Part shown: piece by piece, positions 404 to 21,498 of the stretch
Layout: every line of letters begins with the position of its first letter
Numbering within the stretch: position 1 is the first letter of the stretch
NCBI GenBank assembly: GCA_000310025.1
Contig: FN649735.1
Location: 3,865,769-3,887,274 of the forward strand
Reading direction: 5' to 3'
DNA: 21,506 nucleotides
Source: Ectocarpus siliculosus
Taxonomy: Eukaryota; Sar; Phaeophyceae; Ectocarpales; Ectocarpaceae
Notes under the pieces: generated by a model
What the model saw: only the letters and a program-made list of their open reading frames with translations
What the model was told of the DNA's origin: nothing
Database searches by the model: none
Made by a program: the position numbers and the translations under genes

Positions 404-3400
404 CTGGAATGAAAGGGGGGGGGGGGGGGGCACCGCCGAATCAGTAGGCGCTACCAAGGGGGCAACGCCGAATCAACAGGCACCTACAAAAGGGAGAAAC
501 GCCGAATCAATAGGCACCTACCAATGGGGGAACGCCGAATCATTAGGCACCTACCAATGGGGGCACCGCCGAATCAATAGGCACCCCTACCAAGGGAGCA
601 AACGCCGAATCAATAGACGCTACCAACGGGGCAACGCCGAATCAATAGGCACCTCTACCAAGGGAGCAACGCCGAATCAATAGACGCTACCAACAGGGCA
701 GCGCCGAATCAATAGGCTCCTACCAATGGGGACAACGAATCAAAAAGACACGTATGGATAGAATTTCATCGAGAAGAAACCGTGCGACCGCGGACCTACG
801 TACACAAGAGGCGGGCACCGCAGCAGCATAACCGTGCCTCTCTAGCCATATATTCGTGCCTTACGCGCAACAAATTGGGACCTTCATCGCAACCACAGCA
901 GTGCTGTAGATCGCCCCCGTACACCGTAGTCATCTGACAAGCTGACTACTCTCCGACTTGTGCGCTGCCGTCGCTCCAAGCGGGCGCCTTCGCTCAGGCC
1001 AACGAACCGCTAGAAAAAATACCGCAAACGCGAGGGCGCAGCAGCCCGAACAAGTGCTCAGATTCTCAAAGCCTGCACCCCCTATTTTCGGGAGGGCTCT
1101 AGATCAACCTACCACCCCCATTCTAGAGAGGGCTCTAGATCTGTGCCAGTTCGCGAGGAACTCTAAATGCGAGAAGCCTATTAGGCCACCTGTGTCGAGA
1201 ATTCACATTACGTCCAAGGCACGCACGCACGCCTGGGTACAACAGCGCGACTCTGTTGATCCACCAGCGCCCGCCTCCTCTCGAGACGTGGCTAAGGGTA
1301 CGATTGGCCGTCGTCCTTATTTCAAGCAAGGTGAAGACGCCACAGAGCCACACCCTACAACAGCACTGCTGTGCCGGTACAATCTATTCGTGGCGTACGT
1401 AACCTACACCTCTGTTGGGCTCTTCCCAAAAATGGATTCCATCTTGCTCGCGAGCAGAAATCAAACACAGAGACAAAAAGTATAACAATAAATCGACTTC
1501 GAGACTAGTGCATACCATCGGCGTACCTCAGTCTGTTCTGCCGCGCCTTGATGCTCGATGATGGCGTCGACCGCCTGGCTAACGATCGTAGGCAGCGCCT
1601 GCCACCACAAAACAACAACAGCGACGCAACATCAACATCAACAGCAACAACAACGTACGTTTGAAGCGTACCGAAGTGAGGGTTAGTTAACCGAGCATGG
1701 CCGAAAAACGGTTGTCAGCTTGACAACAAGGAGAAAACAAGACAGGGCCGCCGATACACCCGGCAGCGACACTTCATCGCAGACACACGCTCGTTGTGCT
1801 AAGTACAGACTTGGGGGTGCTGTGACTGAGTGACACCACTCATGACCCGGGCCGATCTAGGCTGCTACTCGAAACAACCATGAATATGAAAACTTGGGGA
1901 CACCGTCCGTACTTCGTGCGTCGTCAAGAACGCCGGCGTCAACCACTTTCACGCCGGCCGCAACCACCCTAAAAAACCCACACTGTGTATGCAGTTGAGG
2001 GTACAACAAGACCAACACAGACGTTTCTCAAGGCTGCAGACAAGAAGTACAACCGACCCGTCGTTACGAGCACTCTACGACTATGATTGGTTGCGGGGGG
2101 TTCCGTCATTGGTCTGGTCTTCAACCGGTACCAACTGTCTCGAAAAAACAAATAGAGTCATGGCAAATATATCCTGGACTCCTATCCGTGGATAGAGATA
2201 GCCTGTGGATAGAGATAGATTCGTTGCGTCACGTTGAGAAAACAAAACAAAACACGCGCACACAGTTAATGACATTTAGAAATGTTTTGTGCTTTCAACC
2301 GCACAAATGAGACTGACGTATTTTCATTGGTCAGCCGGTTAGCGCGGTCCATGCTAACAAAAAAGGCACAAACACAAAACAACATCGGGCTACACACAGA
2401 CCTCGTCGGGATAACTGACGCTCACGCCGTCAGTTCCACCGCCAGCCTTGAAGGCAACTAGCCGGTGCGTCTTGACGATGTCGTACTTCTGCTCGTCGGT
2501 CCGGAACCCGCCGTCCACTCCCAGCGCGAGCACGGTCGGGTCAGCCTTCGAGCCCCCCTGCGGCAGGAAACAGGTCAGGCATGGTATTTCATGTGGCTGT
2601 TTTCCTCATTTCATCTGAAAAAAAAATGGCCTAACCCATGGTTTGTACTCTACACTACCGTGACATTCTGGAATATATGGAGAAAACGGATCTCCGGAGT
2701 CAATCAAGAACACGATGAAAAAACAACCAAACGAGAGAACAACGTGGACACAACAACGGATTCGGACTTCGGGGAAAACGCAAGCACCATCGAGGCCCTT
2801 TCCATGTCGTTAGCCCTGAGCATACTACCGTCACATTTTCCAAACACGAAAACACTTGTGGAGCATGCACGGCGGCGACGTCAATACCGACGAGAGCCGC
2901 ATCATCAGATCAAGGTTATATAATGCCCTCGATTTTCTTTGCACGAAAACAGCTGCAGCGCCAATCAGGCAATTTGTTACGTTCTGCGGTAAGTGTACGA
3001 GGATCGTTGGTAACGTCGCATGTGGGTGAACGGTTTTGTCATCGCAAGAATGATTGAGACTTCATGACGCCAACGACACACTCGCCATCGATCCAGCTTA
3101 GCTGTGTTGGGGGTATGTACTCAAACCCTCAAGCAACCCGGCCGCTACGCGCGTCAACTAAGCTCCTAACGCGCTCGCCGTTAAGCTGTACAAGGGAGGG
3201 GTGCACTCTAACCGTCAAGAAACTCCGCGCGTCGACCAAACAAGCTCCTAACGCGCTCACCGAATCATCGGTGGTGTCCATGCTGGCGTCGTTTGCACCT
3301 TCGCCGGCGGCGGCCGCAGCCTTAGGCACGCGCTTCCATACCTGGTGCACATACAGGCACCCCGCTCCCCTCTCCAGTGCAAGACCGATGAAGTCTTGGC

Positions 3401-5232
3401 CGAAGCCCTGCCAGTTTGCAAGGCTCACGAATAGCCCTCCGGGCGAGAACGGCCTGCGGCGTTGGGGCGAAGAAGAGAGAGATAGAGAGAGTTACGCGGC
3501 TGTGGCGAGAGACTAAATTTAAGAAGCGGAGAAGTCACACAATTCGAACAGCTCAGCGCGATTAGTAGTCCAATGATTTCATTTCGGCTTCTAATAAAAC
3601 GTAGTCGTGGGGTCCGAAATAGCCTGGGTTTTACCCACCACTGAGTTTCTTAAGCTGAAACCAAACCGTTAGGCTGCTGTAGTAGTCGCTCTAGACTGAA
3701 ACCACGCCATTTTGGAAAGGAAACCCGAGCGATGGTGTTCTTCGCTGTGCACAACTGATGCTGGCTCACATTCTTCTCTGTGGGAACCAAAGACGAGGCA
3801 ATCGCTACGGGGACCAAGTTTCGTGGATGATGCCTTGCCAGCTGGCCCAGCCGCTTCGTACAAACCTTCTGGCTTGAGAGAGACAGCAGCCGTGCCACAT
3901 TGTACAGACATTCGGGCCCGGCAAGACACCTCTACATTATATACAGTCGGCGGTCCTCAATAGCGGTAGGTAGCGATAAGAGGTTTTGGTGCCGTTATTA
4001 AGGGCAGTGCAGCTATTCCTAATAGCGATTGTACTGAGAGATGCTTTTGTGCCAAGCGATTTCGGTGACGTTATCGCATACAAGAGGACCGCCGACTGTA
4101 ATTATAATTAATCGACACTTCCCGTAGAGCTACCGTCCGTAGCGCAAGAGGTATGAATAAGACGCATCAGGACAGGTGGCGAGTTACCTGCTAGACATGA
4201 GCATCGCGTCGCGTCCTGCTGCGCGCCTATGTAGCGCAATCCTATGGTGCGCTATGTTTGCCCGTACCGAACATCCACGCGCAACGTTTTCAAGCTTTCA
4301 GGGAAAAAAATTATACACGCAGAAAGACTACCCGTTCGAGATATACCCACAGCAGTCGAACGAGTTGTGCAAGAGGAGGGCGACGCTTTACTGCTGCCAT
4401 ATATTGCTATGTTCAAGTGCAGCGGTACCTTGATTGAGCAGCAGTGCGAGAATCGCTCGTACCGTAGACTGTTTTTCAATATCTGGTGGGTTTCGGAGCG
4501 AAACACAGAGAGGGGTTGTTCAGCTTTGATTAGTGTTGTCTACACCCCTCTGTGGAGGTAGATAATTTATGCATATCAGACACCAGACCGACCTTCCACG
4601 CAAAAACGCGGAGGAATAAGAGGAGGGCCTGATGTATTTTCTCTCGTTGCAGTGTCGACAGCAGCAGTGCAGTTGTGCGCACAAATAAAACAGCAGCGTG
4701 CTTGCAGCTCGAGAGTATGCGTTCGCAAAAGCCAAGAGCGGTATCAACAGTGGGAACTCGCCCGCGGCATCCCCGCAGCAGGAGGTTATTGGTTATTGGT
4801 GTACCCGTCCGGCGAAGACCTGGGGTATATCAAAAGGCTGCCGGTGTCAACACTGCGACAGGTGATATTCGCACAACGGCAACCAGGGCCAAAGGGTGGA
4901 CCCCAAGAAGTGAATCCTAGTAGGCGTGCTAAACAACCATAGAACATGGCCGTGAAATGCTCAAAGCAACAGGTTTATCTGGAGCAGCCCGTGGAGTGCG
5001 TTGTGACGGCAACAACGGCCGTGAGCTGCTTTGCAGACCCCCTGCCTGTCCTCTCTTCTCTAGTCTTCTATCGCCGTCGTGCTGCTGTCCGTGTTACTCA
5101 CGTGTCGAACGAGAACATGCACTCATCCTTGTAGACCTTGTCGTACGTGCTGGGCGCCTTGACTTTGCTGAAGTGGGGCCGGATCAAGCCCAGTACCTCT
5201 TCCGACACGGCATCGCTCTCCACTACGGGCAT
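246..5232 (-). CDS. USP5: USP5/UBP14-type ubiquitin carboxyl-terminal hydrolase (isopeptidase T), 5' half, partial
   Basis: This family disassembles free polyubiquitin chains in cytosol and nucleus. Five minus-strand exons join in phase: 5232-5102, 3453-3261, 2557-2402, 1598-1527, 403-246. Together they give about 236 residues. Family signatures in order are KDECMFSFDT ending exon 1, GGLF...GFGQDF in exon 2 (the N-terminal cryptic zinc-finger domain), LALGVDGGF in exon 3, an alpha-helical LPTIVSQAVDAII segment in exon 4, and VSKYADTLEHVD followed by WVCEN...TENLWLNL in exon 5, the start of the ZnF-UBP domain. The start at 5232 lies in a good context and gives an N-terminus of the usual family length. 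The catalytic Cys and His boxes and the UBA domains must lie beyond position 1. Exon 5 contains an apparent one-base frameshift near 316-317, and the second Cys of the C-x2-C zinc pair reads as Ser. The gene may therefore be damaged, or the base may be a sequence error. The family assignment rests on recalled motifs and is strong. Confidence 0.87.
415..430. repeat. G16 homopolymer serving as polypyrimidine tract
   Basis: Sixteen consecutive G on the plus strand, which are sixteen C on the USP5 strand. They are followed by TTTCATTCCAG and exon 5, so the run sits where the polypyrimidine tract of the acceptor belongs. It directly abuts the minisatellite at 431-740. Confidence 0.85.
431..740. 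repeat. 31-36 bp minisatellite, about nine to ten copies
   Basis: The core CGCCGAATCAATAGGC is followed by variants of ACCTACCAANGGGG. Copies start near 433, 465, 499, 531, 563, 602, 634, 667 and 702, with a decayed copy at about 734. Two sub-types (GGCACC...TACCAA and GACGCTACCAA) alternate in the second half, suggesting a higher-order unit. It lies inside USP5 intron 4, just upstream of exon 5 on the gene strand. There are no palindromic repeats or unique spacers, so it is not a CRISPR array. Confidence 0.92.
741..1526. other. Rest of USP5 intron 4, no further gene seen
   Basis: The long open frame on the plus strand (about 958-1485) has no recognisable domain, biased composition and no splice logic. 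It lies inside an intron of the opposite-strand gene and is best regarded as chance. Confidence 0.55.
1527..1598 (-). CDS. USP5: USP5 exon 4 (72 nt)
   Basis: 24 codons, phase 0 on both sides. The acceptor is GTGGCAG|GCG and the donor ACTGAG|GTACGC. It encodes ALPTIVSQAVDAIIEHQG followed by a short polar tail. This matches the helix in the family (LPxxVxxAVxAVxxA) that precedes the Trp-containing segment found in exon 5. It is too short to stand out as an open reading frame and was found by homology and phase. Confidence 0.8.
1599..2401. other. USP5 intron 3 with CAA-rich tract and SINE-like copy
   Basis: Holds a CAA/CAG-rich low-complexity stretch at about 1608-1660, a short duplication of GTGGATAGAGATAG near 2188-2220, and one copy of the SINE-like repeat at 2283-2379. 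No exon is recognised. Confidence 0.6.
2283..2379 (+). mobile_element. SINE-like dispersed repeat, copy 1
   Basis: It shares TTTTGTG.TTTCAACCGCAC, then GACTGACGTATTTTCATTGG, then TCAGCCGGTTAGCGCGGTC and GATGCT-like ends with the copies at 12041, 16000, 16111 and 16467. The 3' side passes into an A-rich, CA-containing tail. It lies in USP5 intron 3, on the strand opposite the gene. Confidence 0.75.
2402..2557 (-). CDS. USP5: USP5 exon 3
   Basis: 156 nt, exactly 52 codons, phase 0 at both ends. The acceptor is TGCCGCAG|GGG and the donor GACGAG|GTCTGT. It encodes ADPTVLALGVDGGF, matching the family's PT-x-LAIGV-x-GGF, followed by EQKYDIVKTHRLVAF, which corresponds to the family's conserved 'IVILP' strand. 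It ends in a Gly/Ser-rich loop. The donor is weaker than those of its neighbours (GTCTGT). Confidence 0.86.
3141..3262 (-). repeat. 40-bp duplication at the USP5 exon 2 donor
   Basis: On the gene strand, the last two exon bases plus the first 38 intron bases (3262-3223: CGGTGAGCGCGTTAGGAGCT...) recur at 3180-3141 as CGGCGAGCGCGTTAGGAGCT.... The spacing is 82 bp. In the downstream copy the donor GT has become GC. Confidence 0.8.
3261..3453 (-). CDS. USP5: USP5 exon 2
   Basis: 193 nt. The acceptor is CCGCAG|GCC. It encodes PFSPGGLFVSLANWQGFGQD..., the rest of the cryptic N-terminal zinc-finger-like domain, then a basic stretch (VWKRVPK) that aligns with the family's H-x-RR-x-RPK, then an Ala/Gly/Asp-rich linker ending TTDDS. 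The donor is TTCG|GTGAGC. An internal GTATGG after YVHQ could act as a donor but was not chosen, because the basic segment beyond it is conserved. The first 40 bp of the following intron are duplicated 82 bp further on. Confidence 0.85.
3942..4100. mobile_element. MITE with 17-bp perfect terminal inverted repeats
   Basis: The left end is TACAGTCGGCGGTCCTC and the right end is its exact reverse complement, giving a 159-bp element. The ends begin and finish with TA inside AT-rich flanks, consistent with a TA target-site duplication as in Tc1/mariner-like elements. It has no coding capacity. It is inserted in USP5 intron 1. Confidence 0.88.
4300..4370 (+). repeat. Dispersed repeat pair, member 1
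   Basis: About 70 bp resembling 9813-9888. The shared blocks are GACTACCC(G/A)TTCGAGATA and TACCCACAGCAGTC(G/A)AACG, with a GGAAAAA-rich left part. Both copies are in introns. The element class is unclear. Confidence 0.7.
5102..5232 (-). CDS. USP5: USP5 exon 1 (start codon exon)
   Basis: 131 nt, 43 codons plus two bases. It encodes an acidic-helical leader (VSEEVLGLIRPHF) and then VYKDECMFSFDT, the hallmark N-terminal motif of USP5/UBP14. The donor reads AC|GTGAGT. The split Thr codon is completed by the first G of exon 2, giving FSFDTPFSPGGLF across the junction, which matches the family's FSFDTPxSxGGL. The open frame extends upstream to 5394, but that extension looks like 5' UTR or promoter rather than protein. 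Confidence 0.88.
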
Positions 5233-5599
5233 GGCTGCTACTGCCTTGTCTGTAGCTGCTGTGATGTGCTGTGCAGTGTGGGGCGCGGCAAGGATCCGCT
5301 CTGGGGCTCCGTGGATTGTACGTTGAGAGTGGGGGAGGACGGGTAACACGTGTCTCTCTCCTTGCAGCTTGGCTGTGCTGTGTTCATCATCCAAAATACT
5401 CCAGTCTCAAGTCCCACTAGTAGCTGGGCGTTGGCAGACCGTTAACACCCTGTCGACACGGTGGACTCTGCCAACCAGGTCCTGAGGTAAGAGGTGCTGC
5501 TGGTCTAGCTTTTGGAGCTGCGGAACAAGACAGAGAGATCGCCAAATCGGGTGTTTGTTGCTCTTTCGGCCGCCGTCGTCCGGATCTAACGACAACAAC
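5233..5599. promoter_or_regulatory. Divergent intergenic region, probable bidirectional promoter
   Basis: Only 367 bp separate the start codons of the minus-strand USP5 gene (5232) and the plus-strand plastid-protein gene (5600), so both 5' UTRs and core promoters must fit here. No TATA box or named motif can be supported by eye. Confidence 0.65.
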
Positions 5600-9100: not shown

Positions 9101-12100
9101 CCAACGGCGGTCGTTTTTCGTTTTTGTCGATGATCCCGGATTGAAAATGATCGGCTGCACCGCCGCCGGCAAAAGCATCGCAGGTAGACTGCTGCAGGTA
9201 TTGAGTCCCCGCGGCTCATTACCCCTCCCTATCTAAAACATACACGCAAGCAACGTCGACGGTTGCAGAGTTCGGAGGTGTGGGGTACCATGGCAGCTGT
9301 GCTCTCCTCGCTGTTGCGTGTGGGCCGACTTCGCGAGAAATTTAAGGTTACGAGGAAGTAGAAAAGGGGGGGGGGGGTACGCAGAACCAACAACCTAGCC
9401 CAACTTTTCCGAGTGCATGCTTTGTCCAACATGTTTACTTATTATCAATTCGCAGTCGATGTTTTTTGACGCTATGGCACGGTGAACGTTTCCTGGTTGC
9501 GTTCCCGATGGTGTTCCGCTTGTACTGCTGTCTCTACTGATGTGTCGATCGGCGTGAAGGGGGGAAGTTATCCACGCTTCGCGCTTGGAGTGATGTGTAT
9601 GTTGTTTGTGCCAAAGGTGGTTTTGGCTTGAAACCATCGTTACCTCGTTTACTGCAGCACACGTCATTTCGATTGTTGTCATTTCGATTGAAGATTCATG
9701 AATCATTTTTTGCGTGTTTTTTTTCGATCTGTAATCTTGGTTGGTGTTCCTTCAAACCCGTCGTCGAGTTGATTGGAGACACCCATGTTTGGCAAACCAC
9801 GGGCGGACCGTTTAGGAAAAATAAATAGAAACACAGAAGGACTACCCATTCGAGATACAGTATACCCACAGCAGTCAAACGGGATGTGGTGGAGTCTTTT
9901 CAGTGTGTGGAGGAAAACCGGCTGGGTACTGGATGGACTTACTTCTAACCTGTTTTAAGTCTATACACTGATGTTTTTTAAGCAGTGATACCAGCTGGTG
10001 CTAAGTACGAATCTTTTTGGACCTTTTGCTGGGGAAAAAGTCCGCCACAGTCGTGGTCCCGGTTCAGCGGTTCCTTCCGTGTTTAGCGGGATGCCCTGAA
10101 TACCGTTTCCAAAATCTCGTGGCACGGCTGCACCTCGGTATTCAAAACTACAATATTTACTTCCAATCAATCCGGTTTAGCGGCGATGCCCTCAGGGGCT
10201 ATAACATTTTGTTACACTACAAAGACCGCTATACCGGGGCCACGACTGCATGTCCCCAAAACGGCAGCAAGTAAGTCATTGTGACGTTTTGCTTTCGCTT
10301 CGGACACGGCTTTTTTTTTTTTCGTTGTTGCAGGCAGGAGAAGCCACCGCAAAACGGGCGCAGGCGACCACGGGGAGGACAGAAATCATATCGCGCATCA
10401 GCGATGAAACGGTGGCTAAGATTTGCGCGCTTCCGACTCCTGAGGCTCAAGAACGGGCTCTGCAGATGCTCCTAAAGGAGGACTATCCAACGGTAGGTTT
10501 GCACGCACGATGAGAAGCGTTTTTTTTTTGTTTTGTCCTCTTCTTGTGTGTTGGAATTTTTCTTTCTCGCGTTTCATCGAGAGCAGGATGATTGTTTCAC
10601 GATACACGTGTTTTTTTTTGTATCGATTCGTTTCAGCTTGTCTTGTGATATTTGCGAATTTGGACGGGGTTTTACTGGCGCGTGATGTTCGAACACCCAT
10701 ACCGTAAGCTCAACAACCGCCTACGCTTGGGTCTGCCCACGTTCTAGAAGATTCACCATGACCGGTCATCCTCTCATTATGTTTGTCATCATGAGACGGT
10801 CCCTGTTTAGCGCCGGTTGAATGGTGTCATCATGAGACTGTTCAGTAGAGGTCCCTGCCTATTATAGTGCGGGTTAAATAGTGTCATCGTGAGACTGTAC
10901 AGTAGAGGTCCCTGCCTATTATAGTGCGGGTTAAATAGTGTCATCAGGAGACTGTACGGTAGAGGTCCCTGTTTAGTGCGGGTTGAATAGTGTCATCAGG
11001 AGACTGTACAGTTGAGGTTCCTGTTTAGTGCCGGTTGAGTACTGCCGGTGTTTTCGGCGGGAACACACTGAATTTCAAAGTCATTCTCAACACTTGGAAC
11101 AGTGCCGGTCCGGTATAGTGCCGGTCTATACTCTGGGCACGTACCGGCACTAAACAGGGACCTTGACTGTATATGGTACATATTTGTAAGATTTTTATTT
11201 TAGTTTTGTTGAGGTTCGCTTGCCTGTTCGAGTCAAAAACACGTCAGCTGTGTGAGCTGTTGAGCTTGAGAAGTGTCACGCCACAGCTGGCAGCCAGCTG
11301 TTATCCCTGCTTTTCGTTTTCATCGTGCATCGCACCGCTTGATGATACTGCTGTGCTCACATGAACCCACTAATGTATGCATGCTTGGTTTTTTGTGTGT
11401 GAAAGGTCTGGAGGAAGTTAACGACGCAGCAGCGCGCCGCCATCACCAAGCTGAGGGTCGAGAACAAGACTTTCAAGGCCGTATCTATCGGGGACATGAG
11501 GAAGAGAGGGAAGCGGTGAGATACGTGCAGACTCTTTTGTATTTTGTTGTTGTTGGCTGTGCGGCGAGGCCGAACCACAAAAGGGAGTAAGGTCGACTTG
11601 AAGACCTTTGTTTTCGTTGATATGGCGAGTTTTCTGAGTACAGCAGTCACGATCCCGATACACCGCGGGATAGTGACAGGCAAAAATTACCGCGGTACAT
11701 CGGGACCCCCGCACTCTGGAGTGTTGGGGAATATACAGTTTTTTGTATGTAGGAAAATCCCGTGAAAAGGCGGTTTTTACCGCGCTGTATCGGTACCCAC
11801 ACTACTCGGGACCGCGGTACGGTGTATCGGTACGTTACATCGGGACCACCACTGTAAGAGGCAGGAGGCCGAAGCAGAGGCAAGTAGGTTGGCTTCGAAA
11901 ACCTTTGTTTCTTGATGTTGACTGCCAACCGACCAGCTTGCCACACTTCTCCCATAAATCCACCACCGACGGATGCATGCCCGCGCCAGTCAGGGGGTAC
12001 TCGGCAGAGTACTGATGTACGGCCCCCCCCGGGGAGGTTTGTGTGTGTCTTTATTATTAAATAGCATCGACCGCGCTAACCGGCTGACCGATGAAAATAC

Positions 12101-15100
12101 GTCAGTCTTACGATTGTGCGGTTGAAAACACAAAACGCTTCTATCTGCCATGAACTGGGACCCCGTGAGGGGGCAGCGTGTGTGTGTGTGTGTGTGTGGC
12201 TTACGTGCATCTTGTGTGCATGATGGACACAACGGGATGGGATCTTCTCGACTCGCACATGTCTCCGACTCAGGAAGCTCAAAAGACACAAGCATTTGCG
12301 TTACAACACCCATGAGGAGTTCCCGTGCGATAAAAAGGGCTTACCGCATTTGCCGGAGAGATGGCACCCCCGTGTTGGCGTTTTTTTTATTGCGTATTTC
12401 ACCACAACCACGGGGGTACCACTGCCGACAAGGGTAGTTTTGGAAACGTCTCATCGAGGGCTTTCCTGAGAGGTTTCGGTTGGCGTTTTCACCCTCCTAG
12501 TTGTGGAGAAATACGCTACGCTAACATAATGCTGACACGGGGGTGCCGTCTGTCCGACAATTACGGTGTTCGTGTCAACCCGGTGGAGCTTTTTTTTGTG
12601 TGTGTGTGTCCCGTTTTTGGCTCACAGCAGCACCAGCAGCAGCAGAAAAGAGGGTTTTGGCTTTAGTTTTTTTCGTTGCGATTGCTTCGAATTATTCACG
12701 AATATTCCACTTCATTTATCGCAGTACATGCCCCCCCCCCGCGCTTACATGAAACGTTTTGTTGATTGCACTACCCCGCCCGCCTGTGTCCGTTCATTTT
12801 CGGTTGCGAAAGCGACTTGTCCCCGCTTGGTCTGACCTTCTCGGCCTTCCTGTTCGTCACTGGCATGCGGGCGAGCCTCAGGAGCATGTCAAACCAAAGG
12901 AAGAGGGTGAGTTGGGAGTTGGGCCTATGTGCCGCCGAGGACACTCATTTGGTCTTAAGAAGAACACGACAGGTCCATCTCTTGCACAGATTAAGAGTCT
13001 GATTAGCGATTCCATAGCGTTGTTGTTGTTCTTGTGGTTCTGTTTACATAAAACAAAAACAAATAAACGTTCCGATATCTAGTCAGACCTTGATCTGTCC
13101 GTTGCACGGTGACCAACCTATGTTTCTACCGTTGCCCGAGCAGCATACATCGATATCTCGATATCTCCCCTGTGGGTAACAGGCTCGACAAGCTATCGTT
13201 ACTCATTTCTTCAATTTTTTGTCGGTGTCATGATCATCTCATATTCGCTGGGCACCCGTACAGGATTTCCTTGAAACCATTGTGTAAACCTAGGCTACTT
13301 AGCTGGGTTCACGATGAGGAGTTCCCGTGCGGGTAGGCGTTTTTTCTCCAAGGGACCATCCCAATTGGTCAGCAATGCTGTGTGGCTTTCCTATGTACGG
13401 TAGTCTCACGAAGAACGTGGTTCGGAAGTACAGCAGTCGTCCCTCCGTTAAGGACACGTACGGTTTTTCGTTGAAACAGGCGTCCTCTCAAGAGGGGGAA
13501 GTGTCATTGAGGTTTATCCCCCACCCCCTATGGTGTACATGAGTGAGCTGGGAAAATAGTAGGAAGGTACAGGGAGATGTTTGAGGCACCCTCTTATACC
13601 AGAATAGAGGGTACCCAACTATACTTAAGCGGGTCGAGTCTGTGACAACCAATTTCGACCGTCTTATAAGGCACCCTCTTAAATCAAAGCCCCCTCTTAT
13701 ACCAGAATAGAGGGTACCCAACTACCCTTAAGCGGGTCGAGTCCGTGACAACCGATTTCGACCGTCTTATAAGGCACCCTCTTAAAAGGTACCCTACCTC
13801 TTATATCGGAGCCATGACTGTACAGTATTGTATGCATAACTGTTCTTCAGGTGAAAGTGGAGTCGGCAAAGTTTGATGCCGAAAAGGACGAATTCATGGA
13901 CGTCGACGGGGAGGCTGAGTTTGACGTCGACATCATGAAGGAACTCAGGTGCGTCTCGTTATATCTTCGTCGTAGATCTCTTGTCGTAGATCTCTTGTCG
14001 TAGATCTCTTGACGTCGACGGGGAGGTTGAGTTTGACGTCGACATCATGAAGGAACTCAGGTGCGTCTCGTTATATCTTCGTCGTAGATCTCTTGTTGTA
14101 GATCTCTTGTCGTAGATCTCTTGACGTCGACGGGGAGGTTGAGTTTGACGTCGACATCATGAAGGAACTCAGGTGCGTCTCGTTATATCTTCGTCGTAGA
14201 TCTCTTGTTGTAGATCTCTTGTCGTAGATCTCTTGACGTCGACGGGGAGGTTGAGTTTGACGTCGACATCATGAAGGAACTCAGGTGCGTCTCGTTATAT
14301 CTTCGTCGTAGATCTCTTGTTGTAGATCTCTTGTCGTAGATCTCTTGACGTCGACGGGGAGGTTGAGTTTGACGTCGACATCATGAAGGAACTCAGGTGC
14401 GTCTCGTTATATCTTCGTCGTAGATCTCTTGTTGTAGATCTCTTGTCGTAGATCTCTGCCGTAGATTTCTATGTCTACGAACTCACAGGTGCGTTTCGTC
14501 GATCGGTCAAACAGATCTTGGTCGTAGATCTCTGTGGTAGATTTCTGTGAATGGACTCACAGGTGCGCTTCGTCAACCGGTCAAACACATGTTGCGATCT
14601 CTGGTGTAGATTCTATGCTGGGTCGTTGTGCGTACAACTTAATTTTGTAATGTATCAGGGACATGAGTACGAAGTAGAAGCGTTGGTCTTCATCGTACAT
14701 GTCTGTGTCGTGTGTTGTTTTGCGCATGTGTTCACGTATCAGAGATTCCAAGTGTAGATGTGTTGATCGTAGACATCTGTGGTAGATCTTTATCGTAGAC
14801 CTCTGTGATATGCGGATATTCTACGTGTCAGAGAACATGCATACGAAGAATAGATATTTATTCTTAGTTCTGTATCGTAAGCCTCTGTGATAGGGTTGTG
14901 GTACGGATAAACCAACGAATCAGAGAATACCCAGCTGACCCGTTCGCAACTCGCATTGATTGTGTTTGAATATGTCCATTTTTTTTTTTTTTTTGTTACG
15001 AAGAACGTAACAAATCCACGACCTCCACAGATGAGATTCCGTGGTAGATTAGCAATGCATTTATTGTATTGTACGGCGGTGAACAACTTATTTTGAAGTT

Positions 15101-16954
15101 TTTCGCGGTCGTACCCCTCTTTTTTTTTTTGCACGGTTACACAGGGACATGAAGGAGAAGATGGCCGGGCCGGGCGATAGTTACGCCAAGGACACCCGGG
15201 CCTACAACCCCGACTTTGCCGCGGCTGCGGGCGACGAGGAAGAGTACGACAAGAAGATCAAGGAGGTGAGTACGACAAGAAGATCCGAAGAGGTACAGCA
15301 CACCGCTTCGTTTTCGAAACCAACGACAGTATACCCTTTTTTCGGGGCTGAGTCCGCGCTCTCACAGTAGAGTACGACAACAAGATGAAGGTGATGCACC
15401 GCTTCGTTTTTGGAAACCAACTGTACCCTTTTTTGGCTTCAGTCGGCTCTCTCACAGCAGTAGAGTACGACAAGAAGATGAAAGAGGTACAGCACACCGC
15501 TTCGTCCTCGAAACCTACTAAATACTGCTGTACCCTCTTTTTTTTTCTCGCGTCGGCGCCCTTATTATCATACCTTGTTTTCCCAGGCTTTGGAGGGCAC
15601 CGGCAAGGCCGGAAAGTCGAACAAAGGCGAGACGAGGAAAGTGTTCACCAACGAACCTACCACCGGTCCGACCGCGGCTTCCGGGGACCAAGACCTGCTG
15701 GGTGGCGATGGCAATGCCGGGGCCGATACGAGCGGGGGTGCCGCAAGCGCGGCTGCGGAGGTATGTAGGGATCGTCTTTCGGCGAGAAATTTAAGTTTAT
15801 GCGGAAATAGAACAGGGAGGGGGTACGCAGACCCTATTCCCTAACCCTATCCCTAACCCAACTTCCCCGATTGCATTATTTATCCAACATGTTTTTGCTT
15901 TTTTCAAAAAGCCCTGCTAAGGCTACACTGGTATGTAGGCCCTGCCGCTCGCTCTCCCTTCTTCTTTGATTTTGTGTTTGTATATGCGCAAGTGTTACCA
16001 GCATCGACCGTGCGTACTGACCAATGAAAACCATCAGTCAAGTCTTATTTAGTGCGGCTCAAAGCAAAACAGGTTCTATAGGCCATGATCTGTGTGTGTG
16101 TGTTTTTTTTAGCATCGACTGCGCTAACCGACAGACCAATGAAAATACGCCAGTCTGTGCGTGTGTGTGTATGTGTGTTTGCTTTTCGATCGTCCGGTGG
16201 GTTGGTTCGACAAGGGGATTCCAGTTCTCCATCGTCCATGATCCATGCTCGTGTCGTGTTTTTGTTTTTTTTCTGTGTGTGTGTGTGTGTGTGTGTGTTT
16301 TTTTAGCGGGGTATTTTTTTCTTGTTTCTGGCCCTGTGAGGTACTGTATTGGCGGACAGCGGTCTACTCAGGCGAAGTGTCCGTGATTTTCGTGTTTTTG
16401 CTTGGTGAGAGGCCGTTGTGTGCAATACACAAGACACCCACACCCGCACACACGCTCCCTCACAAAGGGGTCCCAGATTGTGGCCTTAGAAGCATTGTGT
16501 GTTTTCAACCACACTGAGACTGACGTATTTTCATTGGTCAGCCGGTTAGCGCGGTCGATGCTAAAAAAAAAAAAAAACACGCACACACACACACACACAC
16601 ACACTCACGGGTCCCAGATCGCCTCTAGACGTGTTCTATGTACGAACGTTCTTCCTTTGGGCGACTGTCATGACCCGAGACTTTACCCAAATCACGAATC
16701 TGGCGAGACCTATCGCGTGGTCTGATCTTGTGCTTGTGACGTCATGTGTGCCACATGCTCAGTAGCGAGCATACGCGAAACGCCTATTACAACAACTCCA
16801 AAGGCTTGGTCTGATGTTGTCCTCGTCGTGTCTTGTGTGCTTGCCACAGGCGAAGAAGCAAGCGGACGCCAAAAGGCTGGAGGACCTGTTCAACAACTCC
16901 TCTATCGACGAGCCCGAAGACGACAACGCGGACGGCAGGGAACGCTTGCCGTAG
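5600..16954 (+). CDS. Predicted plastid (thylakoid-lumen) protein of unknown function, nine exons
   Basis: Exons: 5600-6112, 7851-7997, 10334-10492, 11406-11515, 11859-11883, 13851-13948, 15145-15265, 15587-15760, 16850-16954. All GT-AG phases agree, giving 1452 nt (483 residues). Residues 1-26 form a signal peptide ending TTTEA|FVV, the stramenopile A|F plastid motif. A Ser/Arg-rich transit region follows. Around 131-154, RRSFVGLATAV...SASA|V looks like a twin-arginine thylakoid signal with an A-x-A cleavage site. The mature part has a charged coiled coil (exon 2), a helical TVWRKLTTQQRAAITKL region (exons 3-4), an acidic DVDGEAEFDVDI segment (exon 6), a Gly/Ala/Asp-rich exon 8 and an acidic tail. 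I do not recognise the family. Exon 5, a 25-nt microexon, is the weakest part: without it exon 4 runs into TGA. The start at 5600 was preferred over an in-frame ATG at 5555 because it places the hydrophobic signal at the N-terminus. Confidence 0.8.
6113..7850. other. Intron 1, nothing identified
   Basis: 1.74 kb between exon 1 and exon 2. Open frames simply run on from exon 1 or lack domains. There is a small perfect hairpin, GCCCCGCAGGGGC, near 6595. No mobile element ends were found. Confidence 0.5.
7851..7997 (+). CDS. Plastid-protein gene exon 2: coiled coil
   Basis: 49 codons, phase 0 at both ends. The acceptor is TGATACAG|CTG and the donor GATCAG|GTATCT. It encodes LEEQEAKKQERIREQVQKEH followed by EEKLGSAEEIYGEQ, a strongly charged helical or coiled-coil stretch, then an Ala-rich linker. 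Confidence 0.82.
8481..9010 (+). repeat. Three diverged direct repeats, spacing 220-255 bp
   Basis: Units begin at about 8481, 8701 and 8956, each with an ACAGCT(C/T)G(T/C)GG-like start followed by a variant of GTTATTGCTATTGCTTCGGT. The first two also share GGTGGGNAGGG(A/G)TCA. The third copy is the most decayed. Confidence 0.75.
9330..9440 (+). repeat. Dispersed repeat pair R2, member 1
   Basis: About 110 bp matching 15779-15898. The shared blocks are CGAGAAATTTAAG, GGGGGTACGCAGA, CCAACTT(T/C)(T/C)CCGA and TCCAACATGTTT. It lies in intron 2; the partner lies in intron 8 of the same gene, in the same orientation. Confidence 0.8.
9813..9888 (+). repeat. Dispersed repeat pair, member 2
   Basis: Partner of 4300-4370, with GACTACCCATTCGAGATA and TACCCACAGCAGTCAAACG. 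It has a three-base insertion (CAG) relative to member 1. Confidence 0.7.
10048..10248. mobile_element. TIR element (MITE), 201 bp
   Basis: The left end CAGTCGTGGTCCCGGTTCAG and the reverse complement of the right end CAGTCGTGGCCCCGGTATAG match at 21 of 24 bases over the full 24-bp repeat. Flanks are CA on both sides, not TA. An inner motif TTTAGCGG(G/C)GATGCCCT occurs twice. The element ends 85 bp before exon 3. Confidence 0.8.
10334..10492 (+). CDS. Plastid-protein gene exon 3
   Basis: 53 codons, phase 0 at both ends. The acceptor follows a T11 run (TTTTCGTTGTTGCAG|GCA) and the donor is CCAACG|GTAGGT. It encodes an Ala/Thr-rich start, then ISRISDETVAKICALPTPEA and a helical segment ending LKEDYPT. 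Confidence 0.82.
10785..11048 (+). repeat. About 57-bp tandem repeat, five copies, made of a MITE end plus flank
   Basis: Units start at GTCATCATGAGAC-like motifs at 10785, 10826, 10883, 10940 and 10992, at spacings of 41, 57, 57 and 52. Each unit carries ACTGT(A/T)CAGTAGAGGTCCCT and a (G/C)GGTTNAATAGT tail. The internal part is the same sequence as the left terminus of the MITE at 11007-11171. Confidence 0.85.
11007..11171. mobile_element. MITE, 165 bp, 29-bp terminal inverted repeats
   Basis: The left end TACAGTTGAGGTTCCTGTTT and the reverse complement of the right end TACAGTCAAGGTCCCTGTTT continue into AGTGCCGGT on both sides, 26 of 29 identical. TA at both boundaries suggests a TA target site. 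It lies in intron 3. Confidence 0.87.
11406..11515 (+). CDS. Plastid-protein gene exon 4
   Basis: 110 nt, starting in phase 0. The acceptor is TGTGAAAG|GTC and the donor AAGCG|GTGAGA. It encodes VWRKLTTQQRAAITKLRVEN followed by a basic segment ending MRKRGK. The exon ends two bases into a codon. Direct joining to exon 6 would give an immediate stop, so an intervening exon is required. Confidence 0.75.
11639..11856. mobile_element. MITE, about 218 bp, abutting the microexon
   Basis: The left end TACAGCAGTCACGATCCCGA and the reverse complement of the right end TACAGTGGTGGTCCCGATGT are imperfect inverted repeats with TA termini, and inner GATACACCG motifs occur on both arms. Its right boundary is two bases from the predicted exon 5 start. 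If removed with one TA, the intron would shrink from 343 to about 127 bp and the sequence left of the exon would be TTTTCTGAGTAAG. Confidence 0.7.
11859..11883 (+). CDS. Plastid-protein gene exon 5, predicted 25-nt microexon
   Basis: The acceptor CTGTAAG| is weak, with little pyrimidine tract, and the donor GGCAA|GTAGGT is good. Its length corrects the phase between exon 4 (two bases over) and exon 6, giving GRRPKQRQ. An alternative start at 11861 gives QEAEAEA and would need exon 6 to begin at 13858; it reads more protein-like but uses a poorer exon 6 acceptor. This is an inference from phase, not homology. Confidence 0.45.
12041..12178 (-). mobile_element. SINE-like dispersed repeat, copy 2 (most complete)
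   Basis: On the minus strand it runs from ACGGGGTCCCAGTTCATGGC through TTTTGTGTTTTCAACCGCAC, GACTGACGTATTTTCATCGG and GTTAGCGCGGTCGATGCT to an A/T-rich end followed by ACACACAC. A TG run also borders its 5' side. Confidence 0.8.
13429..13822. mobile_element. Possible MITE with internal tandem duplication
   Basis: The right end (reverse complement TACAGTCATGGCTCCGATAT) is a good match to the other TACAGT termini in the window. The proposed left end, TACAGCAGTCGTCCCTCCGT, is only a partial inverted match. The boundary 29 bp before exon 6 is well placed; the left boundary is uncertain. Confidence 0.4.
13587..13790 (+). repeat. 103-bp tandem duplication
   Basis: Two copies starting CCTCTTATACCAGAATAGAG, at about 13590 and 13693, more than 90% alike by eye, continuing through GGGTACCCAACTA, AAGCGGGTCGAGT and ATTTCGACCGTCTTATAAGG. 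CCCTCTTAT...ATAGAGGG forms a short stem in each copy. Confidence 0.88.
13851..13948 (+). CDS. Plastid-protein gene exon 6
   Basis: 98 nt, phase 0 in and two bases out. The acceptor is TGTTCTTCAG|GTG and the donor AACTCAG|GTGCGT. It encodes VKVESAKFDAEKDEFMDVDG followed by an acidic segment ending MKEL. Its last 50 bases and the start of the intron form copy 1 of a five-copy tandem repeat, so four further decoy donors lie downstream. Only copy 1 is productive: reading on in frame reaches TAG before copy 2. Confidence 0.82.
13899..14460 (+). repeat. 112-bp tandem repeat, five copies, spanning an exon-intron junction
   Basis: Copies begin GACGTCGACGGGGAGG at 13899, 14011, 14123, 14235 and 14347, an exact 112-bp period. 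Each contains the exon 6 end, the donor CTCAG|GTGCGTCTCG, and three 14-bp subrepeats CGTAGATCTCTTGT. Copies 2-5 share a T (GAGGTTGAG) where the exon copy has C (GAGGCTGAG). Older decayed copies with ACTCACAGGTGCG continue to about 14600. Confidence 0.95.
14461..15144. other. Rest of intron 6, decayed repeat copies
   Basis: Two degenerate units with ACTCACAGGTGCG(T/C)TTCGTC at about 14482 and 14557, and scattered GTAGAT(C/T)TCTGTG motifs to about 14810. There are T-runs at 14980 and 15120. No gene seen. Confidence 0.65.
15145..15265 (+). CDS. Plastid-protein gene exon 7
   Basis: 121 nt. The acceptor follows a T12 run (GGTTACACAG|GGA) and the donor is AAGGAG|GTGAGT. It completes the split Arg codon and encodes DMKEKMAGPGDSYAKDTRAY, then NPDFAAAAGDEEEYDKKIKE. 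Phase 0 end. The exon's last 24 bases are repeated in the intron. Confidence 0.85.
15242..15560 (+). repeat. 93-102 bp tandem array, seeded from the exon 7 donor
   Basis: GAGTACGACAAGAAGATNAA followed by a GGTACAGCACACCGCTTCG-type stretch occurs at 15268, 15370 and 15463, and its first 24 bases are the exon 7 end (15242-15265). Copies 2 and 3 are preceded by CTCTCACAG(CAG)TAG and followed by AAG|GTG or GAG|GTA, so each looks like a small pseudo-exon with both splice signals. Confidence 0.88.
15587..15760 (+). CDS. Plastid-protein gene exon 8
   Basis: 58 codons, phase 0 at both ends. The acceptor is GTTTTCCCAG|GCT and the donor GCGGAG|GTATGT. It encodes ALEGTGKAGKSNKGETRKVF, then a Gly/Asp/Ala-rich low-complexity region that is probably disordered. 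Confidence 0.83.
15779..15898 (+). repeat. Dispersed repeat R2, member 2, with telomere-like motif
   Basis: Partner of 9330-9440. It carries CCCTATTCCCTAACCCTA followed by TCCCTAACCC (about 15832-15859), where member 1 has only ACCAACAACCTAGCCCAAC. The CCCTAA units match the common TTAGGG telomere repeat. Confidence 0.78.
16000..16091 (-). mobile_element. SINE-like dispersed repeat, copy 3
   Basis: AGCATCGACCGTGCGTACTG, then ACCAATGAAAACCATCAGTC and a diverged GCGGCTCAAAGCAAAAC. It is more decayed than copies 2 and 5, and its 5' end is followed by a TG run. Confidence 0.65.
16111..16157 (-). mobile_element. SINE-like dispersed repeat, copy 4 (truncated)
   Basis: Holds only the 3' half: AGCATCGACTGCGCTAACCG, ACAGACCAATGAAAATACGC and CAGTCTG. 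It is flanked by T8 and TG runs on one side and a TG run on the other. Confidence 0.7.
16154..16304. repeat. TG microsatellites
   Basis: Two TG runs, at about 16154-16177 and 16272-16298, separated by unique sequence. They adjoin SINE-like copies and may derive from their tails. Confidence 0.85.
16467..16577 (+). mobile_element. SINE-like dispersed repeat, copy 5
   Basis: From GGGGTCCCAG through TTGTGTGTTTTCAACCACAC, GACTGACGTATTTTCATTGG and TCAGCCGGTTAGCGCGGTCG to ATGCT followed by A15 and then a (CA)n run. The terminal poly-A plus microsatellite tail is the main reason to call this family retroposon-like. Confidence 0.82.
16578..16607. repeat. CA microsatellite tail
   Basis: About 28 bp of alternating CA directly after the A-run of SINE-like copy 5 and directly before the GGGTCCCAG start of a sixth fragment. 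Confidence 0.9.
16608..16640 (+). mobile_element. SINE-like dispersed repeat, 5' fragment (copy 6)
   Basis: CGGGTCCCAGATCGCCTCTA continues for a few bases and then diverges. It matches only the start of copies 2 and 5, in head-to-tail order with copy 5. Confidence 0.5.
16850..16954 (+). CDS. Plastid-protein gene exon 9 (last)
   Basis: 34 codons plus TAG, phase 0 start, acceptor CTTGCCACAG|GCG. It encodes AKKQADAKRLEDLFNNSSID, then an acidic tail ending GRERLP. The 3' UTR follows; a 7-bp stem CGCAACC/GGTTGCG with a four-base loop lies at 17026-17043. Confidence 0.83.
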   Translation, partial: AKKQADAKRLEDLFNNSSIDEPEDDNADGRERLP

Positions 16955-21128: not shown

Positions 21129-21488
21129 ATGGGCTTCGAACGACGCACGATCGCGGATTCTAGGCAGTGCCGCTTAGACCCCAGGGTCAATGGCGGTAGG
21201 GGCAAGCTCTACCGCTGCACCGGGGTCATCATCACCGGGAAGGCGACATCCGGCTGCCCGGTACGTGCCCAGGCGTGCAAGGTACGGGACGGCAGCTGGA
21301 AGGTGACCGAGGTGGAATTAGAGCATGTGGCCTGCACCGGGCAGGCCGAAAAGAAGAAGAAGCACATCAACCGCAGGTGTGTGGAGGAGGAAGCGGTGGC
21401 GATTGTGAACTCCAACAACAGCATTAGCGCGCCGGAACTCGCGAAGACGCTTAAGCCAACCGCCGCCGGCACTCGCGAAGACGCTTAA
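21129..21488 (+). CDS. MULE-type transposase, N-terminal zinc-binding domain, frame broken
   Basis: 119 codons from ATG at 21129. Residues 28-70 carry YRC (Cys30), GCPVRAQA (Cys43), DGSWKVTEVELEH (His66) and Cys69. This is the layout of the FLYWCH/FAR1/WRKY-GCM1-type DNA-binding domain found at the N-terminus of Mutator-like transposases. A KKKKH basic patch and an SNNSISAPELAKTLK helix follow, the latter resembling the helix that precedes the catalytic region in MULEs. The frame ends at 21488 because a segment (21437-21470) is tandemly duplicated with a 34-bp period, shifting the frame. The catalytic DDE domain is beyond the window. An upstream in-frame extension exists but lacks domain character. 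Confidence 0.72.
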   Translation: MGFERRTIADSRQCRLDPRVNGGRGKLYRCTGVIITGKATSGCPVRAQACKVRDGSWKVTEVELEHVACTGQAEKKKKHINRRCVEEEAVAIVNSNNSISAPELAKTLKPTAAGTREDA

Positions 21489-21498
21489 GCCAACCGCC
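21437..21498 (+). repeat. 34-bp period tandem duplication in the transposase
   Basis: ACTCGCGAAGACGCTTAAGC followed by CAACCGCC occurs at 21437 and 21471, identical over 28 bp. The period is not a multiple of three. Confidence 0.93.

Follow-up and report, generated by a model that had tools for sequence, protein, structure and literature searches.

Intron 6 of a nine-exon gene modelled in the window, by which we mean the whole 21,506-nt stretch of DNA analysed, begins with a tandem array that repeats the junction between exon 6 and the intron, so that one splice donor is followed by a series of its own copies. We consider it likely that the array is a young intronic minisatellite that arose from a duplication straddling the intron 6 donor, and that the first donor is used while the copies behind it act as near-neutral decoys.

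A tandem array of exon-intron junctions

TRF identifies 5.0 copies of a 112-bp unit at positions 13899-14457 (99% matches, score 1104), bearing out the constant period reported in the initial annotation of this DNA. The units are arranged head to tail over 13899-14458, with four of the five copies inside intron 6. As had also been stated, each holds the exon end, the donor CTCAG|GTGCGT and the first intron bases; the exon part measures 50 nt and the intron part 62 nt. Matches to the donor core GGAACTCAGGTGCGTCTCG without a mismatch number five (at 13940, 14052, 14164, 14276 and 14388), and none of 100 shuffled sequences contained five such matches.

The copies had been described as exact, apart from one substitution separating copies 2-5 from the exon copy, and a base-by-base comparison of the units corrects both statements. 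Copies 2, 3 and 4 show no differences among them over 336 bp, copy 5 matches them at 111 of 112 bases with the mismatch at the final base, and copy 1 has C where copies 2-5 have T at two sites, position 17 in the exon part and position 87 in the intron part of the unit. Inspection shows that adjacent units meet at CTCTT|GACGTCG and that the outer flanks of the array read CATG|GACGTCG and CTCT|GCCG; no microhomology longer than about one base was seen between the unit junction and the outer flanks. Intronic minisatellites (VNTRs) are runs of near-identical units, about 10 to 100 or more bp long, placed head to tail in an intron, and the array has these properties. Unlike in the usual VNTR, the unit includes coding sequence of the host gene and a splice site.

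A genome with fewer or more copies than the assembly is a very unlikely explanation, although the stretch over which copies 2-4 are alike would be unresolvable by short reads. The two base differences of copy 1 and the edge difference of copy 5 make it probable that more than one copy is real, and the diverged copies and the second array described below show that such duplications occur in this region. It is plausible that the copy number varies between individuals.

Table 1. Positions in the window of the two junction arrays and of the parts of the gene model that contain them
Feature	Positions	Strand	Description
Microexon, 25 nt	12882-12906		cctcag|GAGCATGTCAAACCAAAGGAAGAGG|gtgagt; fixes the phase between exons 4 and 6
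Exon 6, 98 nt	13851-13948	+	flanks cttcag| and |gtgcgt; gene model with unbroken ORF; source of the copied exon end
Unit 1	13899-14010	+	donor after 13948; positions 17 and 87 unlike units 2-4
Intron 6, 1196 nt	13949-15144	+	
Candidate 57-nt cassette exon	14004-14060	+	TAG|ATCTCTT plus 50 nt, reaching into unit 2; acceptor tcttgtcgtag; repeats every 112 bp for units 3-5
Unit 2	14011-14122	+	donor copy after 14060; same sequence as units 3 and 4
Unit 3	14123-14234	+	donor copy after 14172
Unit 4	14235-14346	+	donor copy after 14284
Unit 5	14347-14458	+	donor copy after 14396; final base deviates
Diverged 74-bp units	14436-14594	+	donors after 14488 and 14562 (CTCACAG|GTGCGY); TRF 82% matches; 49-nt copies 82% identical
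Diverged copies of the 13-nt array motif TCGTAGATCTCTG	14459-14887	+	8 matches with at most 3 mismatches
Exon 7	15145-15265	+	gene model
Exon 7 end, EYDKKIKE	15242-15265	+	template of the copies in intron 7
Copy 2 of exon 7 end	15268-15292	+	GAAGAG|GTACAG; use would lengthen exon 7 by 27 nt, in frame
Copy 3 of exon 7 end	15370-15390	+	ATGAAG|GTGATG
Copy 4 of exon 7 end	15463-15486	+	AAAGAG|GTACAG; the modelled intron 7 ends after it

The host gene

Nine joined exons give a 1452-nt ORF in which the sole stop is the last codon, and all eight modelled introns are of the GT-AG type. The proposed junction from 13948 to 15145 fits this model, including its microexon, and leaves the frame open. Searches of Pfam and NCBIfam with the translations of exon 1 and exons 3-9 (434 of 483 residues, all but residues 172-220 of exon 2) returned no matches, so the support for the gene model comes from its splice signals and open frame. 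In the viral contigs, the only collection searched for relatives, 60 stretches fit the pattern of the gene and none was confirmed, and the exact 25-mer of the junction had no match there. The N-terminus of the product appears signal-like by eye and GC content is near 50%; together with the intron sizes, these traits would suit a brown alga, and an algal origin, as the initial annotation had it, is plausible. No known RNA or tRNA was found.

Choice among the donors

Donors 1-5 are without any difference from −33 to +36 in the unit comparison, so sequence strength is nearly removed as a variable and position should decide among them. Exon 6, 98 nt in length, lies between introns of 944 and 1196 nt, and with these lengths exon definition predicts the use of donor 1. 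The spliceosome would define the exon across its length, joining the acceptor that ends at 13850 with the nearest donor, and copies 2-5 would then be removed with the remainder of the intron. In transfected minigenes with two identical donors and flanking introns of 365 nt, which were spliced by exon definition, only the upstream one of the pair was used, whereas sites in short introns obeyed the opposite, cross-intron rule, according to an excerpt of that report (PMC9225289). If exon 6 were instead recognized by intron definition, the donor nearest the acceptor of intron 6 would be expected to prevail and translation would meet a stop, which counts against the use of donor 1. We infer that exon definition operates at exon 6 and favours donor 1.

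The initial annotation called the locus a natural test of donor choice. The description is fair, as the array lies in a natural gene, probably outside animals, in which cross-exon and cross-intron proximity can be compared; engineered tests with identical donors had, however, already been published (PMC9225289, in the same excerpt).

Read-through from exon 6 meets an in-frame TAG within copy 1, as noted earlier, and we place it at 14001-14003. The ORF is lost whichever of donors 2-7 exon 6 is extended to (six of six cases). The earlier claim that only the first donor gives protein therefore holds for simple extensions of the exon but goes too far otherwise, in that in-frame 57-nt cassettes or dual-specific use of AG|GT would also keep the ORF or leave a normal mRNA. 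The same stop codon and broken extensions, together with the identity of donors 2-5 to donor 1 around the splice site, are what one would expect if some transcripts used the later donors, stopped at the TAG and decayed, with copy number tuning expression. Proximity across the exon, on the other hand, predicts little use of later donors, and we regard such unproductive splicing as improbable.

Each intronic copy could alternatively serve as an in-frame cassette exon that adds SLDVDGEVEFDVDIMKELR, so that the protein would vary by 0-4 repeats of 19 aa. The ORF indeed remains open over its full length with one, two, three or four cassettes inserted, and the pyrimidine fraction of the cassette acceptor (0.65) falls within the range of the eight modelled acceptors (0.41-0.82). 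Only one of the six AGs between donors 1 and 2 yields a 57-nt exon of matching phase. The frame is nevertheless weak evidence, as three TAGs spaced 14 nt apart place one of them in frame by arithmetic. Between cassettes the intron would measure just 55 nt, and the TAG ending of the cassette acceptor recurs at none of the eight modelled acceptors. A YTNAY branch-like site is also missing from the 55-nt stretch, although it is equally missing from the final 45 nt of intron 6. On balance the cassettes are unlikely.

Dual-specific or recursive splicing, in which each AG|GT copy acts as acceptor and then as donor, would remove the array in 112-nt steps and leave a normal mRNA. Descriptions of recursive splicing mostly concern introns far longer than intron 6. 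An acceptor-like pyrimidine tract before AG|GT is absent from the five young copies, which are purine-rich upstream (pyrimidine fraction 0.35, compared to 0.41-0.82 in the eight modelled acceptors); the two diverged copies farther into the intron reach 0.59 and 0.53 when the counted stretch is shifted by one base. On the other side, AG|GT is retained in all seven copies, and human UBC contains a tandem array of dual-specific sites with stochastic splicing, as reported in an excerpt of PMC10809524. Taken together, we find this way of splicing intron 6 distinctly unlikely.

RNA structure was considered as a selector of the donor and rejected, as the sequence folds no better than its shuffles. 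For unit 1, 189 of 200 shuffles were at least as stable, and for a 650-nt region all 20 shuffles were. The base at position 17, C or T, alters the predicted energy of a single hairpin (−10.1 versus −7.7 kcal/mol). Predicted accessibility gives donor 1 no clear distinction and is below 0.03 for all five donors; that of donor 1 is slightly higher than that of donors 2-4 in all three settings and lower than that of donor 5 in two of the three.

Origin and growth of intron 6

An initial 112-bp tandem duplication would have placed a second exon end and donor inside intron 6; copy 2 would then have acquired two base changes and multiplied into four nearly identical copies. These three steps account for all differences among the units except that at the final base of copy 5, at the edge of the array. 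Slippage or unequal exchange probably drove the expansion. At position 87, in the middle one of three 14-mers, the T of the intronic copies is probably derived, because copy 1 and the 14-mers on either side show C there. The earlier proposal that the array expanded from an intronic copy gains support, as copies 2-5 have two differences from copy 1 in common.

Two diverged donors behind the array, after 14488 and 14562, had been overlooked, and with them seven AG|GTGCG sites stand in a row. This end of the intron also holds short units of 13-14 nt besides the diverged 74-bp ones. Traces of the array extend still farther. The motif TCGTAGATCTCTG, which was picked post hoc after inspection, has 23 matches with at most 3 mismatches in intron 6 and a single match in the other seven introns combined. 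Past the array (14459-15144) its 8 matches compare with a mean of 0.12 and a maximum of 2 in 500 simulations, the last match ending at 14887. Among the larger units, those adjacent to the exon are nearly identical and the next ones, of 74 bp, agree at 82%. These observations suggest repeated rounds of growth of intron 6 at the donor side, and a similar event may have occurred in intron 7.

A broader view would be that introns of this genome grow from the donor end, with the junction as a duplication-prone seed, copy number and splice choice co-evolving, and the array serving in part as 19-aa cassettes or recursive AG|GT steps. If this were true, every round of growth would add an extra working donor, while earlier copies would be displaced downstream and decay. 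The motif did not become steadily more degenerate with distance from the donor, the mismatches of the successive matches past the array being 3, 0, 2, 2, 2, 3, 1 and 3. The absence of a gradient makes the broader view less likely, and we give it little credence.

A second junction array in intron 7

Intron 7 contains three copies of the exon 7 end (EYDKKIKE), at 15268, 15370 and 15463, which the initial annotation had also missed. For every donor we aligned a surrounding segment of 70 nt with the remainder of its own intron and compared the scores with those of 200 simulated introns per donor. Two of the eight donors, those of introns 6 and 7, exceeded all 200 simulations (135 compared to a maximum of 27, and 44 compared to a maximum of 20). 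No junction copies were detected at the other six donors, among which intron 8 had the lowest number of simulations scoring as high (9 of 200). Copies of acceptors were convincing at none of the eight introns; 1 of 200 simulations scored as high for intron 6, 2 for intron 8, 11 for intron 2 and at least 47 for the other five. We dismissed the best of these acceptor scores because they are too weak for 16 tests, and the match in intron 6 sits in a T-run region. With YAG acceptors and lengths of 10-80 nt, none of seven candidate cassette exons in intron 7 is in frame.

That two adjacent introns each contain copies of the exon end before them suggests a way in which introns may lengthen, from the donor side. 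The two affected donors were noticed post hoc in one gene, and we treat them as a lead, not a rule.

Other repeats and reading frames in the window

Tandem duplications are frequent in the neighbourhood of exon 6. A 98-bp tandem duplication with 95% identity is located in intron 5 at 13586-13786, about 65 bp before exon 6. Elsewhere, tandem arrays are found near the window start (32/67-bp units at 426-737) and in intron 3 (57-bp units at 10798-11044), and a 34-bp duplication (97%) at 21430-21498 overlaps an ORF at the window end. The latter ORF had no Pfam match, and among the viral contigs 8 pattern matches yielded no confirmed relatives. Short repeats are dispersed in both orientations at 2245-2376, 12037-12197, 16000-16156 and 16434-16589; they are 74-88% alike in pairwise comparisons, several adjoin (TG)n runs, and they are possibly small transposable elements.

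On the minus strand, the ORFs 3129-3491 and 5098-5406 jointly match positions 1-62 of the 64 in the variant UBP zinc finger PF17807, and the second of them has a weak match to USP5 (PDB 3ihp, E 0.13). Judging from these matches, there seems to be a USP5-like gene on the minus strand.

Comparison with known systems

The array resembles those of human UBC and VCX3A in being a tandem array with one dual-specific AG|GT per unit in the human genes and one AG|GT per unit here. The coding units of UBC measure 228 nt, a length divisible by three, and are spliced in and out, according to the same excerpt (PMC10809524). Unlike them, the unit in intron 6 has 112 nt, which is not a multiple of three, its acceptor context is weak, and dual use is hypothetical.

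None of the matches listed names a natural array of identical donors in its title or abstract opening, a scope outside which most of the subscription literature lies. Identical competing 5′ splice sites were reportedly engineered by Lang and Spritz in 1983. As in the engineered competing donors, identical donors here stand in series before one acceptor; unlike the minigenes excerpted from PMC9225289, the array is natural, has five copies in nearly the same surroundings and is probably non-animal.

Tandem genomic duplication was proposed as a model of intron gain by Rogers (1989, as cited in PMC4974935). The model involves a duplicated segment that contains AG|GT or a boundary, and each unit of the array has AG|GTGCG. 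It differs from the present case in that an existing intron was lengthened here, with five to seven copies, and a single intron 6 already explains the frame. In fission yeast, two gained introns consist of tandem repeats (PMC3629103, excerpt), and the likeness to intron 6 lies in the presence of tandem repeats in the intron. For the RdRp gene of potato, an excerpt of PMC4974935 describes tandem duplication across an exon-intron boundary as a route to new introns. In both cases the duplication spans the boundary and the copies inherit splice signals; in potato the acceptor side was copied and here the donor side. The array is probably neutral. Tandem duplication across a boundary is a described process, and what is different here is that it copied the donor side, in five to seven copies that lie within an intron already present, and that the following intron shows it again.
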